Assembly (NCBI GenBank): GCA_019058365.1
Contig: JAHPZE010000010.1
Span: 1 to 64,000, forward strand
Source: Promethearchaeota archaeon
Lineage (GTDB): Archaea; Asgardarchaeota; Lokiarchaeia; Sigyniarchaeales; SOKP01
DNA: 64,000 nucleotides
Direction: 5' to 3'
Positions within the stretch are counted from its first letter, which is position 1, and the number at the start of each line of letters is the position of its first letter. The notes under the pieces are model-generated. The model did not search any database and was not told where the DNA came from. It saw only the letters and a program-made list of their open reading frames with translations. Made by a program: the position numbers and the translations under genes. Shown piece by piece: positions 1,472-26,660 of this stretch.

Positions 1472-2608
1472 ATGCTTTATAAAAAAGAAAGACCCGCTAT
1501 TTTAATGCTCCAAGATGGTCGATATTTTCAAGGGATTGGTTTTGGAGCGACTAAAATTGTTTCAGGAGAACTTGTTTTTAATACTATAACTGGAGCGGGT
1601 TACCTTGAAACTTTAACAGATCCATCGTATTGGGGCCAAATTGTTGTTATGACTCACCCTCTCATAGGTAATTATGGAATTCCTCCATGGGAAAAGGATA
1701 AATTTGGTATTACTAAACATTTTGAATCAGATTCTATAAAAGTAACAGGTTATGTTGTAAATGAGTGTTGTAAACATCCAAGTCATTATCAAAGTGTTAA
1801 AACCCTTGATGAATTTTTAACTGAACAAAATGTTCCTGGAATTGAATGGATTGACACACGAGCAATTACCAAAATTATACGTGATGAAGGTGTCCAAGTT
1901 GGAGTGTTAGCAGTATATAATTATGGAGAGAAGCTACATATTGAAGAATTAAAACAATTGGCTTCTGAAGCAGAAGACCCGAATCTGCGAAATCTTGCAA
2001 GTGAAGTGTCAACTAAAGATGTTATGATTCATAAACCATCAAATCCTATTGGTAAAGTAGTTTTATTAGATATGGGGGTTAAGCTGAATATATTACGTAG
2101 TCTCGTCTATAGGGGTCTAGAAGTTATTGTAGTCCCATATAATTATACATACGAGCAAATTATGTCTTATAATCCCAATGGTGTTTTTATATCGAATGGT
2201 CCAGGTGATCCAGCAATATGTAAAAGTGCAATCGAGGTAAGCAGAAAGCTTATTGAAAATAATATTCCTACTATGGGAATTTGTCTAGGAAATCAGATTT
2301 TAGCATTAGGGGCTGGAGGATCTTCTTATAAACTTAAATACGGACACCGGGGTGGTAATAAGACCGTTGTTAATACTCAATCACAAAAATGTTACATTAC
2401 TTCTCAGAATCATGGTTTTTGTGTAAAAGATTTTGAGAAGGGAGGTTTTAAAGAAATTCTAAGAAATATAGATGATAATTCTAATGAGGGCATTGAACAT
2501 ATATCTAAACCAATCTTTGCCGTTCAATTTCATCCAGAAGCGTGTCCAGGACCTTTAGACTCATTATATCTATTTGATAAATTCTTAGAAAATATGAAAT
2601 TGTGTTAA
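1472..2608 (+). CDS. carA: carbamoyl-phosphate synthase small (glutaminase) subunit
   Basis: Hydrolyses glutamine and passes ammonia to CarB for carbamoyl phosphate synthesis, feeding arginine and pyrimidine pathways in the cytoplasm. The N-terminal CPSase small domain (about residues 1-150, with SGELVFNT) is followed by a class I glutamine amidotransferase domain (about 190-375). The nucleophile Cys sits in GICLGNQ and the His/Glu pair in QFHPEA. At 378 aa it is close to the bacterial length (382 in E. coli). An SD-like AAGGAG lies about 25 nt upstream of the ATG, so the exact start is not fixed by it. Its partner carB is on the same strand but 3 kb away, with a kinase gene in the opposite orientation between them, so the pair is not an operon here. 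Confidence 0.96.
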   Translation: MLYKKERPAILMLQDGRYFQGIGFGATKIVSGELVFNTITGAGYLETLTDPSYWGQIVVMTHPLIGNYGIPPWEKDKFGITKHFESDSIKVTGYVVNECCKHPSHYQSVKTLDEFLTEQNVPGIEWIDTRAITKIIRDEGVQVGVLAVYNYGEKLHIEELKQLASEAEDPNLRNLASEVSTKDVMIHKPSNPIGKVVLLDMGVKLNILRSLVYRGLEVIVVPYNYTYEQIMSYNPNGVFISNGPGDPAICKSAIEVSRKLIENNIPTMGICLGNQILALGAGGSSYKLKYGHRGGNKTVVNTQSQKCYITSQNHGFCVKDFEKGGFKEILRNIDDNSNEGIEHISKPIFAVQFHPEACPGPLDSLYLFDKFLENMKLC

Positions 2609-3106
2609 TAATAACATTGGATTAAAATATAAAGAACAGTGATAAGAAAGATGAAAAATTAGGGCATAAAATTAAAAATTATGTGTTTAAAATAAATTTA
2701 AAAATTAAAATTGATAATATTTTTTAATTAATTTTTAGCTATTCACATTTTATTATTTTAATTAGATATTAATAACATTAATATTTAAAGAATGGGAAGA
2801 GAAAGACTCAAAATTAACAAAATATAAGTATTCTCCTTAAGGAGAATTGCACTTCCTTAACCTCTTTTAATTATTTATAGGAAAAAATTATGCATTAAAA
2901 AGTTATTAAAGTACTTCTTTTTATCCTTTTGTTTAGAGGAAGTCTAATTTTAATGTTAAATATGAGATGGGTATATGAGAACAAAACTAATTGATTAATG
3001 ATGCTTAAAATAGATAAAAAATAGATAAACTTGGATATAGATTTGTTCTTAATTTTTTTTTTTTTTCACTTAGATTTAGATTTTCTGATCAAAGAAATAT
3101 TATAAG
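2609..3106. other. intergenic region between convergent carA and kinase genes
   Basis: About 500 nt between convergent genes. The only structure seen is a perfect 16-nt palindrome (listed separately) and T-rich runs near 3053-3065 that could terminate transcription. No credible ORF is visible. Confidence 0.5.
2831..2846. repeat. perfect 16-nt palindrome
   Basis: TTCTCCTTAAGGAGAA is a perfect inverted repeat without a loop, between convergent genes. As a dyad it could bind a dimeric regulator; as RNA it would be a poor hairpin. The two halves include GGAG, so a chance match to SD-like sequence is possible. Role unknown. Confidence 0.5.
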
Positions 3107-4897
3107 TTATCTTTTACCTTCCTCATATGTTATAGGTATAGAGAAAGTAAAAGTGCTCCCTTTCCCTAATTCACTGGAAAACGATATGTTTCCTCCGAGC
3201 AAAGTTAAAATTTGATTCGTTATTGTCAGTCCTAGACCCATACCTTGATAATTTTTAACTTCTGGGTTCTTGATCTTATGAAATTCTTCAAAAATATTTT
3301 CAAATTCACTTTCTGCGATACCTATGCCTGTATCAGTAATATTAAATTCTAAGAAGTCTCTCTGCTCTTTAATTTTTAATGTTATACTTCCTTTAGGGGT
3401 AAATTTTATAGCATTATCAAGTAAATTTAATAAAATCTCTTTTAGTCGAATATAATCAGTTTTTATAAATTCATATGTAACATCGTTTTCAATATAAAAT
3501 TCTAATTTTTTTTTTATACATAAAGGTTTTAGGGTAGATTGAATACTATCTAAAAACGTTTTTAAGTTAAACCTTTTAATATCTATTACTAATTCTCCCG
3601 CTTCGATCTTTGAGAGATCTAGGAGACGGGTAATTAATTCTAACAAATCACTTGAAGAAAACTTTACATCTAAAAGAAAATTTGTTTGACATTTGTTTAA
3701 TGGTCCGCAATAATCTTCTAAAAGAAGCTCGACAAACCCGATTATTGCATTTAATGGAGTTCTTAATTCATGAGACATTGATGATATAAATTTTGTTTTA
3801 ATTTGAGATTTTTTAATCGCATTATCAAGTTCTTCTTCAATTTTTCTTGTTTTTGTGATATTTCTGCCAATATATAAAATCCCCTTTATATCTCCGTATT
3901 TATCATATATTTTAGAAGATGTCAACGAAATTTTAACAGTGTCATCTGTTTTGGTTTTAAAGTCCACTTCAATATCTGTGAGAAATTCACCGTTTTCATT
4001 ACTCATAAGCAATTGAGACTGATAATGAAATAATTTAAGATCTTGCTCTGAAGCTAATAAAATTTCAAATGACTTTTTCAGAAGGTCTTTTTCTTGATAC
4101 TTTAGCAAGTTTAATAAAGTACTATTCGTCGATAAAATAATGCCCTTGGAATCAGTTAAAATTAAACAATCGGAGATTGCAGAGAAAATCTTTTCAGTAG
4201 CGGTTTTTAAATCTAATGAAAACAATTCATATTTCCATATTGCATATCCAATAAATATAAACGTAATAGAAAAACCAGCAAGGGCAAATGAAGGAATTAC
4301 TAAGGTGAAGATTGTGCCTAATAAAAAGTCAGTGATTAAAAAAATTGTAATCGGAATCAAGCATCCAATTGAAATATATTTAGCCTGCTTTTTTTTAGTC
4401 TTATCAGAAGTTGAAATATATATTTTTATGCTTAAATAACTTCCAAAAAAGAAAAGGGAAGTCATATAAATATATGTTAAGTAAATAAAAGCAGAGGATA
4501 TAACATCCATGTTATAATTAAAATCCCAACCCCAGTAATATTTTTCCATTTTTAAATTAATAACATATATTTTATAATTAAGAAGAACTAATCCTATTCC
4601 AATTAAATAAATTGTCAATAGAATTTTTTTTTTTTTCAAATTGTATTTCTCCGAGAATAATAAGATAAAATGAAACCATAATGCTGCAATTAACGGATAG
4701 ATTTGAGCAAAATTAAACCAAATATAGGCTTCTTCAAAATTAATTGCTTGTCTCATTCCAAATTCTGTAAAACAATATAATGAAACACTAAGACATAATA
4801 GCGCGAAGACTTTATTTAGTGAAATTTTAGGACCTTTTGAATAAATAAAAACTCCTAAAACTAAAGAACTAATAGCTATAATAAGCGATATAAGCAA
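3107..4897 (-). CDS. membrane sensor histidine kinase (7TM-PAS-HisKA-HATPase)
   Basis: Autophosphorylating sensor kinase. Residues about 1-225 form seven or so hydrophobic segments resembling the histidine kinase N-terminal 7TM module. A PAS domain follows (about 230-345), then HisKA with the phosphoacceptor His in MSHELRTPLNAI, and a HATPase domain with the N box (NLLDNAIKF), G1 (DTGIGI) and G2 (GMGLGL). At 596 aa it looks complete. No response regulator is adjacent, so it is an orphan; its signal and partner cannot be read from the sequence. Two-component proteins in archaea are often acquired from bacteria, but I see no composition difference from neighbours. Confidence 0.92.
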   Translation of the reverse strand: MLISLIIAISSLVLGVFIYSKGPKISLNKVFALLCLSVSLYCFTEFGMRQAINFEEAYIWFNFAQIYPLIAALWFHFILLFSEKYNLKKKKILLTIYLIGIGLVLLNYKIYVINLKMEKYYWGWDFNYNMDVISSAFIYLTYIYMTSLFFFGSYLSIKIYISTSDKTKKKQAKYISIGCLIPITIFLITDFLLGTIFTLVIPSFALAGFSITFIFIGYAIWKYELFSLDLKTATEKIFSAISDCLILTDSKGIILSTNSTLLNLLKYQEKDLLKKSFEILLASEQDLKLFHYQSQLLMSNENGEFLTDIEVDFKTKTDDTVKISLTSSKIYDKYGDIKGILYIGRNITKTRKIEEELDNAIKKSQIKTKFISSMSHELRTPLNAIIGFVELLLEDYCGPLNKCQTNFLLDVKFSSSDLLELITRLLDLSKIEAGELVIDIKRFNLKTFLDSIQSTLKPLCIKKKLEFYIENDVTYEFIKTDYIRLKEILLNLLDNAIKFTPKGSITLKIKEQRDFLEFNITDTGIGIAESEFENIFEEFHKIKNPEVKNYQGMGLGLTITNQILTLLGGNISFSSELGKGSTFTFSIPITYEEGKR

Positions 4898-5685
4898 AAA
4901 AATATTCAGATTGTCTCACTTTAGTGTATCAAACATTTTTAGAGGACTTCTATAAATTTTCTAATTTTTTTTGGGGGATCTTTTAATTTCCCTTGATCTT
5001 GTTTGTTATTCACTCTCTTCTATTGACAAATGCCATATTAACTATAGTTGCTTATTCTTTACATTGAAATATTTTTCTTTAAACCAGACTTATCCCCATT
5101 TTTTTCATTTCTGGGTACTGAATAATTAAAATGAAAGAATCTGGATGAATTAATTATATATGTTGATAACTCTTTTTAATTTCCTGTAAAAAGCTCTTGA
5201 CAAATGCCGATGTTTAAGATCTTTTTTTTTTCTGATTAGGAAAATTATTTTATTAAGCGTTTTAGGTTTTTCTCATATTTTGAAGTTATAATGATTATAA
5301 AAGAAGTCTTATTTATATATTGCTATCTTTAAATGATATCTTAAAAAATTTCTGGAGATTTGTCACAATCAATAAAAATTATACTATTATAACATAAAAC
5401 AACGAAGACTCGGAACTGCGTTATTCTATTAAATTTATTTTTATATTAATTTCATCTTCTTTAAAAAGTATAAATAATAAAAGTTTCTATTATTTTGCTT
5501 ATATCTGGATTTTCTTTTTATTTAAGATTCTAATTATTTAATTTAATAAAATAAGATTCTTATGCATTTTATTTATCCTATTAATAAGTAAATTAATAAT
5601 AATCATTAATTTTTTATTCTTCAGAATATAAAATTACGATAAAACTAATTTAAGAAATAAAAAGTGTTATATAGATAGCTCAAAC
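4898..5685. other. long AT-rich intergenic region upstream of carB
   Basis: Nearly 790 nt without a credible gene. It lies between the divergently transcribed kinase and carB genes, so both promoters should be here. The only internal repeat noticed is TTGACAAATGCC, present twice (near 5024 and 5199). The region is otherwise low-complexity A/T. Confidence 0.45.
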
Positions 5686-8600
5686 ATGCCATTAGATAAA
5701 AAAATTAAAAAAATATTGGTTTTGGGATCAGGTGGGATACGAATCGGTCAAGCTGGAGAATATTTGGGATAACCCCATTTATCTAGAGAGTTTGATTATA
5801 GTGGTTCTCAAGTTCTCAAAGCCCTTAAGGAAGAAGGTATAAAGACTATCTTAATTAACCCCAATATTGCAACTATTCAAACTGATCCTCAACTATCGGA
5901 TAGGGTCTATTTATTGCCAATCAATGTTGATTATGTAGAACAAATAATCAAAAAAGAGAATCCTGATGGGATTATGTTAGCTTTCGGGGGTCAAACTGCC
6001 TTAAATGTAGGTGTTGAATTGAATGAAATGGGAATTCTTAAGAAGTATAATGTTCGGGTTTTGGGAACTCCTATAGAAGCTATAGAAGCTACTGAAGATA
6101 GAGATCTTTTTGTACAAGCTATGGATGTTTCAGGAGTTAAAGTTTGTAAAAGTCGAGCTGTGTCATCATATAGCGATGCACTTAAAGCAGCAAAGGAAAT
6201 AGGGTTTCCATGTATGATTCGAGTAGCCTACACTTTAGGTGGTCAAGGATCTGGGATATGTAGCAATATGCGAGAATTTGAAAAAATGGCAAAGAAAGGA
6301 CTTGCTCAATCACGGATAAACCAGATATTAATTGAAGAGAGTATATGGGGTTGGAAGGAAATTGAATATGAAGTAGTAAGGGATGCTGAAGACAACTGTT
6401 TTATAAATTGTAACATGGAAAACTTTGACCCCGTTGGGATTCATACAGGAGAATCTATTGTAGTTGCCCCTAGTCAAACTTTAACAAATGAAGAATATCA
6501 AATGCTACGTTCAGCTTCTATCCGTGTTATAAGAAATCTGGGAATAATTGGCGAATGTAATATCCAATATGGGTTAGATCCATTCTCAGAAGAATTTAGG
6601 GCAATAGAGGTAAATGCACGTCTTTCTCGGTCTTCTGCGCTAGCATCAAAAGCTACAGGTTATCCATTGGCATATATCGCAGCAAAATTAGCTATTGGTT
6701 ACACCTTACCTGAACTTAAGAATAAAATAACAGGTATTACTACAGCATGTTTTGAACCTGCTCTTGATTATCTCGTATTAAAGATACCAAGATGGGATTT
6801 AACTAAATTTCAAAGAGTTGATAGAAAAATTGGCTCTCAAATGAAATCTGTGGGCGAAGTAATGGCTATTGGGCGAACATTTGAGGAGGTTCTTCAAAAA
6901 GCCTTAAGAATGTTAGATGTTGGTGTGAAAGGATTAGTAGGGAATCAAATTGAGTCAATCGAAGATATTAATGAATTGAAATTTTCTTTAGCTAATCCAA
7001 CAGATTTACGAGTCTTTAGGATCGTCGAAGCGATAAACCAAGGAATCTCTATTGATGAGATTTATCAAATCTCTCGGGTTGATAAGTGGTTTCTATATAA
7101 AATTAAAAATATTATTAATATTGAAAAAGAATTAAAGGCTATAGACTTTTTAGAAACTGATGATGATGATAAACTTTATTGGTTTGAACGAGCAAAGCGA
7201 TTTGGCTTCTCTGATGGGCAAATAGCAAAAATAATGGGCTTAGATGTAATTAAAATAAGACAAATATTAAAGAGGAAGTATCAAATCCGACCCTATGTAA
7301 AAAGGATTGATACATTAGCAGCAGAATGGCCTGCTAATACAAACTATCTTTATATGACCTATGCAGCATCTGAGCACGATATTGACTTTGAGCAAGAAAA
7401 TAAACAAAATCTAAAAAAAATTGTAGTATTAGGCTCGGGAACTTATCGCATTGGAGCATCTGTAGAATTTGATTGGGGTTCAGTGAATTGTCTCTGGGGA
7501 TTAAAGAAGTTAGGGGTCGATCAAGCAATTATGATTAACTATAATCCAGAAACTGTCTCCACCGATTATGATACCTCAGATAAACTTTACTTTGAAGAAT
7601 TATCTGGAGAGCGAGTGCTAGATATCATTGAACTTGAAAAACCTGATGGTGTAGTTGTATCCGTAGGTGGCCAAATTGCCCAAAATCTTGCTGCTAAATT
7701 CACAAAATATTCGGAATTTTTCAGAAAAGTAAACTTAAATATATTAGGGACACATGGAAGTAGGATTGATATGGCAGAAGACCGTTCAAAATTTAGTAGC
7801 CTACTAGATCAATTGAAAATAAAGCAACCTCAATGGAGTATGTTGACAAATAAGGAAGAAGCACTTAAATTTGCGAGAGAAGTTGGTTACCCTATATTAG
7901 TTCGCCCATCATATGTGTTAAGCGGTGCAGCTATGAGAGTATCTTATGATGAAAAAACATTAAAAGATACTCTTGATCTTGCAGTAGCAGTTTCTCAAGA
8001 ATTTCCTGTAGTAATCACTAAATTTTTTAAAGGAGTAAGGGAAATTGAAGCTGATGGAGTATCTGATGGAACCATGGTTTTCATAGGGGCAATAGTGGAA
8101 CATATAGAAAACGCAGGAGTTCATAGTGGCGATGCAACAATGTCAATTCCGCCTCAAACAGTTTCTGATAGAGTAATTGAAACAATCGAGAAAAATACCA
8201 GAGAAATTGCATTGGCGTTAAAAATTAGAGGTCCTTTTAATGTGCAATATCTTGTTAAAGACGAAGAAGTATTTGTAATTGAGTGTAACCTACGGTCTAG
8301 TCGAAGTATGCCTTATGTATCAAAAACCAGAGGTATTAATTTAATGAGACTTGCCGCCGAAGTGTTTATGGGGGTTAAGATTCCTCAAAGAATAATGGAA
8401 TTACCTTATGGAAGATTTGTATCAATTAAAGCTCCAATGTTTTCATTCATGCGTCTTGATAAAGCTGATCCAGTTTTAGGTGTTGAAATGGCATCTACAG
8501 GAGAGGTGGCATGTATCGGAGAAGACTTTTCGGATGCTCTAATAAAATCACTTGAAGCCGCAGAAATGAACATTCCAATCCAAGGAGGTAATGTTTTAAT

Positions 8601-9030
8601 TTCTGTAGGTGGTAAAGAATTAAAACAACAAGTGATTCCTTTAGCGAAGAAACTTAGAAATTTAGGATTTACAATTTTTGCGACTGAGGATACTGCTATC
8701 GCATTAAGAAATAATGGAATTTACGCTGTTAAGCTCTATAAAATTCACGAATATGGCTTGGAACCAAACATCATGGAATGTCTACAAAATGGAGCCATTG
8801 ACTTGGTGATAAATATTCCTCTCCCCACTACTATAGAAGATAAATTCAGAACTATAATGGAAGATGAGTATAAGATCAGGAGAATGGCAGTAGATTACAA
8901 TATTCCTGTAATTATTAACCTACAACTTGCTAACGCTTTAATAAATGCAATAGAAAAAATTCGGAGAAAAGAAGTTGAAATAAAATCACTTAATGAGTAT
9001 CATCAAACATTAAAAGAAATATATTGGTAG
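5686..9030 (+). CDS. carB: carbamoyl-phosphate synthase large subunit, interrupted by a 30-nt insertion
   Basis: Uses ammonia from CarA, bicarbonate and two ATP to make carbamoyl phosphate. Two homologous ATP-grasp halves are present (about 1-550 and 560-1080 of the joined product) plus a C-terminal MGS-like allosteric domain. The ORF track begins at TTG 5914, but homology clearly extends to ATG 5686: residues 1-25 (ILVLGSGGIRIGQAGE) and then FDYSGSQVLKAL are the family's N-terminal nucleotide-binding fold. Between these blocks lie 30 extra nt with an in-frame TAA (5770-5772). Removing them gives a continuous protein of about 1104 aa (E. coli 1073). Starting at 5914 would delete most of the first pre-ATP-grasp fold. 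I therefore favour a spliced or otherwise bypassed full-length gene over truncation. Confidence 0.9.
5759..5788 (+). other. candidate bulge-helix-bulge mRNA intron in carB
   Basis: Thirty nt containing TAA interrupt the conserved GQAGE/FDYSG junction. The RNA can fold as follows. An exon-exon helix pairs 5746-5753 with 5790-5797 (8 bp, three G-U). A 4-bp central helix pairs 5754-5757 (UGGA) with 5782-5785 (UCUA). The 5' bulge is GAA (5758-5760) and the 3' bulge is GAGA (5786-5789). The intron-internal hairpin pairs 5761-5768 with 5774-5781, with two U-U mismatches. Cuts within the two bulges (after 5758 and 5788) join to GGA GAG TTT, giving GEFDYSG. Flanking GAGA copies make several splice registers give nearly the same product. 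This is the fold recognised by archaeal tRNA splicing endonuclease; the 3' bulge is one nt longer than canonical. Confidence 0.6.
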
Positions 9031-25633: not shown

Positions 25634-26368
25634 CTACCAATATTGAACGTTAATCCCTGAATTTCTCATATCTTCTAAACTTTTGATAGAGTCGTTATCA
25701 AACGGACCGTTATTATGAATTAATAATACCTTTAAGTGAATTAAATTATCTAGTCCTTTAATTTCTGTTATATTATTACTATTGAGATATAATTGTTCTA
25801 GATAGCTTAAATTATCGAGTTCTTTGATTTCTCTAATTTGATTATAAGCAAGAATCAGAATTTTGAAATTAGTTAGTGTTTCAAGTCCTTTTATAACTTT
25901 GATTCTATTACCACCAAGATCTAATTCCCTTAAATTGGATAAATTCTCAAGTCCTGTGATTTCTGTAATATAATCACTGCAGGACGTCTCTAAGGATTTT
26001 CTCAGTCGCAAAACCTCTAAATTTCTGAGATGATCTAAATTTTCGATTATAGAAATATTACTATCGGTAAGTTTTAAGATCTTCAGATTTGTAAGATTGT
26101 CAAGATTCTCAATTTTGCTTAGATGAGGACTGTCTTTAATTACTAAAGACTCTAAATTTTGTAGGTGATCAAGGTTTTCTATTTTTTCGAGATAAAAAGG
26201 TTTGCAATGTAATTTCTTCAAGTTTACAAGTTTTTCAAGACCTTCAATTTCATCGAAGTTTTTAATTTCAAATTCACGTGGAAGATCATATGGAAGACGT
26301 AATTCTCCATTTTTTACTTCGATCTGAATTCCTTTATATAAAACAAACTCTTCTTTACTATTATTCAT
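25634..26368 (-). CDS. leucine-rich-repeat protein (SDS22-like)
   Basis: A 244-aa soluble protein built of about eight 22-residue leucine-rich repeats of the SDS22 type (L-x-x-L-x-x-L-x-x-L-x-L-x-x-N-x-I), for example LTNLKILKLTDSNISIIENL. There is no signal peptide or membrane anchor, so it is probably a cytoplasmic protein-interaction scaffold. Such repeats are frequent in Asgard genomes but also common elsewhere. No operon partner; a small plus-strand ORF lies divergently upstream. Binding partner unknown. Confidence 0.88.
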   Translation of the reverse strand: MNNSKEEFVLYKGIQIEVKNGELRLPYDLPREFEIKNFDEIEGLEKLVNLKKLHCKPFYLEKIENLDHLQNLESLVIKDSPHLSKIENLDNLTNLKILKLTDSNISIIENLDHLRNLEVLRLRKSLETSCSDYITEITGLENLSNLRELDLGGNRIKVIKGLETLTNFKILILAYNQIREIKELDNLSYLEQLYLNSNNITEIKGLDNLIHLKVLLIHNNGPFDNDSIKSLEDMRNSGINVQYW

Positions 26369-26447
26369 AACTTCATGAAACCTTTTTTCATATTTAATTT
26401 TAAAAACCTTCGAAGTTAAGTGGTTTTTTTATTTATTCCATGAACTG

Positions 26448-26660
26448 ATGCATGTCTTAATATTTGACCATAATAAATCACTTTATACAATAATTAATCA
26501 ATATCCTAAAAATCTCGAAATTGAATCATATTTAGTTCTTTTTCAAAAATATATAAAGAGACAACATATAATCAAGTGTAAGGGGAATTATTACTTGCAG
26601 ATAGAAAAGAAATTAACTGAGATCTATATTGATGATGAGAATTTTTTCCAAAGCAAATAA
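26448..26660 (+). CDS. small ORF, 70 aa, unknown
   Basis: An ATG-started frame with ordinary residue composition, including a run of aromatic and charged residues (CKGNYYLQIEKKLTEIYID). No family recognised and no clear SD. It sits alone between minus-strand genes. Real gene or chance is undecided. Confidence 0.35.
   Translation: MHVLIFDHNKSLYTIINQYPKNLEIESYLVLFQKYIKRQHIIKCKGNYYLQIEKKLTEIYIDDENFFQSK

Follow-up and report, generated by a model that had tools for sequence, protein, structure and literature searches.

The carB gene and its 30-nt insert

The window, i.e. the whole stretch of 64,000 nucleotides that was analysed, belongs to a Lokiarchaeia MAG, a draft of 4.74 Mb in 54 contigs with an estimated contamination of 6.6%. 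On its plus strand lie an intact carA (1472..2608), which encodes the small subunit with the Pfam domains CPSase_sm_chain and GATase, and carB, which starts with the ATG at 5686 and the conserved CarB N-terminus MPLDKKIKKILVLGSGGIRIGQAGE. Upstream of carA, a 356-aa protein is encoded at 289-1359, which is conserved in the nearest relative (G010) and gave no Pfam match. Between carA and carB lies a 3.1-kb block (2609..5685, plus strand) that was not found in relatives; it contains long AT-rich non-coding DNA and, at 3107-4897 of the minus strand, a gene for a 7TM/PAS histidine kinase.

The first 25 codons of carB (exon 1, 5686..5758, plus strand) read ...GGIRIGQAGE and end at the proposed 5' splice site GGAG^AAU. 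They are followed by 30 nt (AATATTTGGGATAACCCCATTTATCTAGAG, 5759..5788, plus strand), a proposed bulge-helix-bulge (BHB) intron with each cut placed 2 nt away from the central helix. Within this insert an in-frame TAA is found at 5770..5772 (plus strand), read directly from the sequence and also counted as one TAA by the read-through searches. Exon 2 (5789..9030, plus strand) continues with the conserved sequence FDYSGSQVLK and codes for the remaining large subunit of carbamoyl-phosphate synthase (CPS), as indicated by its open frame, its dN/dS and the Pfam domains CPSase_L_D2, CPSase_L_D1, CPSase_L_D3, and MGS. The frame reads ...IRIGQAGE-YLG*PHLSRE-FDYSGSQ... and after the TAA stays open until 9030, and deleting the 30 nt gives back GQAGEFDYSG. 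A first-pass annotation of this DNA had claimed that a 30-nt insert with an in-frame TAA splits the GQAGE-FDYSG junction of an otherwise intact carB, and both parts of this claim proved to be real. Compared with the nearest relative, the gene shows one clean 30-nt insertion at 95% identity over 1,114 aligned positions. A second intact carB, which the same annotation had considered as an argument against splicing, or a detached 5' exon was sought elsewhere in the genome and was not found; carB is single-copy.

Throughout the order, carB was identified in 58 of 79 genomes with 67 copies in total, and the stop occurs solely in the copy of this MAG, the other 66 (from the 78 other order genomes) all being free of it. 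Several genomes of the order have two carB copies. The comparison with sister genomes that had been suggested as a check was done by site-by-site alignment of carB, and the insert was absent from all other copies found in the order; likewise, a homologous intron was sought in the genus and the order and none was found. The insert sequence is unique within the genus at up to three mismatches, and an Rfam search gave no match. Two possible sources of the insert were rejected: a dispersed repeat or mobile palindrome, as it is single-copy in genome and genus at up to three mismatches, and a tRNA intron, as the similarity was not above that of shuffles. When about 100 homologous genes were compared, carB was the sole high-identity, full-length match with a single clean interrupting insert, and no second cleanly interrupted gene was found among them.

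Ancestry of the locus and selection on CarB

In relatives where both genes were located, carA and carB are adjacent or overlapping, with a gap of -13 to +4 nt. The DNA on both sides of the 3.1-kb block is colinear and syntenic with G010, and among the relatives found for the histidine kinase of the block, the nearest is a paralogue (62%) from another part of this genome. Just after carA, positions 2609-2636 resemble a decayed native carB start; the resemblance is weak by shuffling and better within the colinear match, and a relic of the native start at about this position is possible. At the left end of the block, where an attachment-site repeat was sought, no direct repeat above chance and only a weak AT-rich inverted match were found.

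Exon 1 stands apart from the rest of the gene. Its synonymous-codon identity to G010 is 0.41, compared with 0.68 to 0.91 in later intervals (to codon 350), and pS to G010 amounts to 0.88 in exon 1 versus 0.28 downstream. The DNA identity of exon 1 is 86% to G007, 83% to G015, 82% to G002, and 74% to G010. Judged by these values, the first 25 codons of carB are of a different ancestry from the remaining gene, and the switch in ancestry coincides with the position of the insert. Taken together with the 3.1-kb block between carA and carB, the separate ancestry of exon 1 implies that the insert sits at a recombination junction. The coincidence of their boundaries suggests that a single recombination may have brought in both exon 1 and the insert.

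Downstream of the insert, comparison of exon 2 with G010 gave a dN of 0.018 and a dS of 0.355 (dN/dS 0.05). Within a five-member clade, 13 replacements are specific to this genome, none of which affects a site that is at least 98% conserved elsewhere, and 10 of the 13 derived states occur in other Lokiarchaea. By this measure, the pattern of CarB downstream of the insert is that of a working protein. The accumulating lesions and lost purifying selection of a pseudogene were not observed, as there is a single insert and dN/dS is 0.05. Polarised replacements number 20 on the branch of this genome versus 5 on that of G010 (synonymous changes, 51 versus 43), so that selection may have been somewhat relaxed or function lost very recently. 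A carB match is absent from 21 of the 79 Lokiarchaeales genomes, several of which are nearly complete. As about a quarter of the genomes lack a match, the gene can be lost, and Lokiarchaeales may often have lost the synthesis of pyrimidines or arginine. Two apparent pseudogenes were seen in the same genome: L139 (16629-16901), an alcohol-dehydrogenase-like fragment containing two stops, and L192 (contig C9, about 26200-26600), a frameshifted metallo-beta-lactamase-like gene.

Fold, predicted cuts and splicing machinery

In pre-mRNA BHB introns, each bulge is described as being cleaved after its second and before its third residue (PMC2738675). The central helix had originally been assigned to UGGA/UCUA, a register that was rejected because the usual cuts would remove 28 nt and break the frame. 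The neighbouring register works: CUGG in exon 1 (5753..5756, plus strand) pairs at four of four positions with CUAG at the 3' end of the intron (5783-5786, plus strand), and rule-based cuts in this 4-bp register take out exactly 30 nt (5759-5788) in frame. Excision would yield GGTCAAGCTGGAG+AGTTTGATT, which translates to GQAGEFD and would thereby give a functional exon junction. The earlier statement that cutting in the bulges restores the frame consequently holds for CUGG/CUAG and not for the fold with which it was given.

On either side of the central helix (plus strand throughout) are the 5' bulge AGA (5757-5759, 3 nt, cut AG^A) and the 3' bulge AGAG (5787-5790, cut AG^AG), the latter having 4 nt versus the canonical 3. 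The insert thus deviates from a motif with two 3-nt bulges, and its geometry is at best that of a relaxed BHB motif. The intron hairpin that had been described is present at 5760..5782 and consists, by fold evaluation, of AUA (5760-5762) paired with UAU (5780-5782), a UU/UU internal loop, and UGGG (5765-5768) paired with CCCA (5774-5777). An exon-exon helix is present as well, with 7 bp (three G-U) between GGUCAAG (5746..5752) and UUUGAUU (5791-5797) in the corrected register. It is not specific, because it is located in conserved coding sequence; a helix of at least 7 bp is also formed in 25 of 54 intronless relatives. The exon helix is pre-existing coding sequence and not an adaptation. The exon 1 sequence of the G010 clade would not support the BHB (0 of 4), whereas that of G007 would.

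The BHB is not the preferred fold of the precursor, with -11.1 versus -16.4 kcal/mol for the minimum-energy fold. The latter is a different structure whose energy is lower by about 4 to 5 kcal/mol than that of either BHB version, and the exact structure of the UGGA/UCUA version has a model probability below 0.1%, all of these values coming from folding-energy models that leave out protein capture. In tRNA-Gly and tRNA-Ser of the same genome, unlike in carB, the minimum-energy folds contain the BHB core.

The motif is nevertheless rare. When the insert was shuffled in place, a 4-bp central helix together with an exon helix of at least 5 bp and an intron helix of at least 3 bp arose in 0.18% of cases, this fixed-position test covering seven cut registers. 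When shuffled inserts were placed at random positions of carB, the full motif with an exon helix of at least 7 bp was obtained at a frequency of 3.5e-5, and among 63,840 stretches of 30 nt (window, plus strand), exactly one showed the full motif in a single register. These chance figures are optimistic by a modest factor, because the sequence was already known when the register and the tolerance for a 4-nt bulge were chosen.

Two EndA paralogues are encoded in this genome. The first has the catalytic subunit of Aeropyrum pernix as its best PDB match, has kept the His that is mutated in 3ajv, and carries a loop GISKPR that aligns to GYYGQPLDVEKPR; the aligned Lys is presumably the functional Lys of the Crenarchaea-specific loop. 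The second is devoid of the catalytic His. As a pair, they appear to correspond to the broad-specificity (alpha-beta)2 type, which is able to process relaxed motifs (PMC6379350) and has been connected with the splicing of cbf5 (PMC2738675). The ligase RtcB is present as well. An endonuclease for relaxed motifs, with its type deduced from sequence, and a ligase would both be at hand.

Lengths of 101-110 nt are frequent among the tRNA genes of this genome, and the best-fitting BHB introns include those of tRNA-Gly(GCC) with 30 nt and tRNA-Ser(UGA) with 19 nt. Small introns were seen in many tRNA genes of this Lokiarchaeon (e.g. L215, L216, L222, L223, and L229), and some of them seem to lie outside the anticodon loop. 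Within 1.77 Mb, ARAGORN by itself detected no more than 7 tRNA genes. In other Asgard genomes, introns have been reported in >90% of tRNA genes, and non-canonical BHB introns are abundant in the tRNA genes of other Asgard archaea (PMC11291895) and also occur in this genome. From the long tRNA genes, the BHB fits, and the intron-rich tRNAs of other Asgard archaea, we infer that removal of such small introns must be routine in this organism. When about 1.77 Mb of the genome were scanned for further BHB introns in coding sequences, mostly gene-gene boundaries were returned, plus carB itself. One BHB candidate, on contig C9, was rejected because it proved to be an ordinary gene with a frameshift.

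Competing explanations and known systems

The explanation that we regard as the most likely one, with moderate confidence, is that EndA and RtcB remove the carB insert from the mRNA as a relaxed BHB intron. The carB pre-mRNA would fold such that CUGG of exon 1 pairs with CUAG at the 3' end of the intron, leaving a bulge on either side; the heteromeric EndA would cut both bulges at a distance of two nucleotides from the central helix; and RtcB would ligate the exon ends to ...GGAGAGUUUGAU..., with GGAG joined to AGTTTGAT. Full-length CarB with the junction peptide IGQAGEFDYSGSQVLK would then be made from the spliced mRNA. We infer that the RNA adopts the BHB fold in vivo and is then cut and joined, and production of full-length CarB would hence depend on splicing. 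That carB mRNA carries an intron processed by EndA had already been proposed in the first-pass annotation. Its core is favoured, as no other explanation tested accounts for the insert as well and the genome has the machinery; its structural reasoning does not hold, as the fold given fails the cutting rule and the exon helix pre-exists. The insert looks like a BHB intron and would work like one, and we do not claim membership in this family as settled, because 3-nt bulges on both sides and a preferred BHB fold are not found.

The second likeliest explanation, though rather unlikely, is that carB was inactivated recently. In separating carA from carB, recombination would have left a 30-nt filler with a stop, and carB would be a young pseudogene in a lineage able to lose genes of pyrimidine or arginine synthesis. 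The order genomes without a carB match, the broken operon, an exon 1 of different origin with its junction at the insert, the 20 polarised replacements on the branch of this genome (G000) versus 5 for G010, and further damaged genes in this genome are all consistent with this. However, 1,079 codons without another lesion, the low dN/dS, and replacements confined to variable sites argue against it, and by this account it would be by chance that the insert keeps the frame and makes a frame-restoring BHB. An artefact of assembly or binning, in the form of a chimeric join of co-occurring Lokiarchaea, is very unlikely. Exon 1 does resemble another subclade of the genus, and the genome is a draft in 54 contigs with an estimated contamination of 6.6%, but two precise misjoins would be required because G010-syntenic DNA flanks the block on both sides, the join would have to fall precisely at a homologous codon, and the histidine kinase has its nearest relative found in the same genome. 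A simple assembly error is therefore unlikely, given the colinearity with G010 on both sides.

Explanations at the level of translation carry even less weight. Programmed bypassing, in which the ribosome would leave the message at GAA (5758-5760) and land at GAG (5788-5790) with re-pairing of the same Glu tRNA, is highly improbable: both codons specify Glu and lie exactly 30 nt apart with a hairpin within the gap, but the carB stop follows three codons further on and not right after the take-off codon, and the BHB geometry is left unexplained. In the bypassing element of the T4 type, the stop is located immediately after the take-off codon and is followed by a hairpin (PMC8211752). Least probable of all is that the TAA is read as an amino acid or that reinitiation downstream gives an N-terminally truncated CarB. 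The insert keeps the frame and TTG at 5914 is the first standard start codon past the stop, but read-through would introduce ten residues into an otherwise uninterrupted conserved motif, and reinitiation would lose this motif although codons 1-25 remain conserved in protein sequence.

If the insert is a spliced intron, the group closest to eukaryotes would recently have gained an intron that is 30 nt long, restricted to a single species, and located in a metabolic gene of this Lokiarchaeon. A tRNA splicing enzyme would then be able to rescue an mRNA. Automatic annotation would split or truncate such genes, and the carB insert provides a short, directly testable substrate. A more far-reaching and distinctly unlikely idea is an event resembling co-conversion, by which a single Lokiarchaeal lineage would have acquired the BHB intron in its carB along with a replacement 5' exon that stems from a different subclade. 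BHB introns would then be mobile in protein-coding genes of Asgard archaea, and carB would be the first recent gain of an mRNA intron in the archaea nearest to eukaryotes.

Very few protein-coding genes of archaea are known to contain introns, and cbf5 is the documented case considered here. Like the carB insert, the pre-mRNA introns of cbf5 in Desulfurococcales and Sulfolobales (Crenarchaeota) interrupt a protein-coding gene and have a BHB-like fold at the exon-intron borders, and, as proposed for carB, the cuts lie between the second and third bulge residues in organisms with a hetero-oligomeric EndA (PMC2738675). In contrast to cbf5, where the intron is ancestral to two orders, the putative carB intron of 30 nt affects a different gene in a different phylum (Lokiarchaeia) and occurs in one genome only. 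The non-canonical BHB introns of archaeal tRNAs share with it the size (19-30 nt for the clearest ones here), the BHB geometry, and the enzymes, whereas the host of the carB insert is an mRNA without a tRNA body, and there is no sequence similarity to the tRNA introns examined. Bypassing elements such as those of T4 gene 60 and the mitochondrial byps of Magnusiomyces resemble it as short in-frame interruptions with a hairpin and flanking codons for the same amino acid; they differ in the position of the stop, in the described take-off signals that carB lacks, and in the BHB geometry. A literature search, mainly of openly accessible papers, found no BHB intron in an Asgard mRNA.
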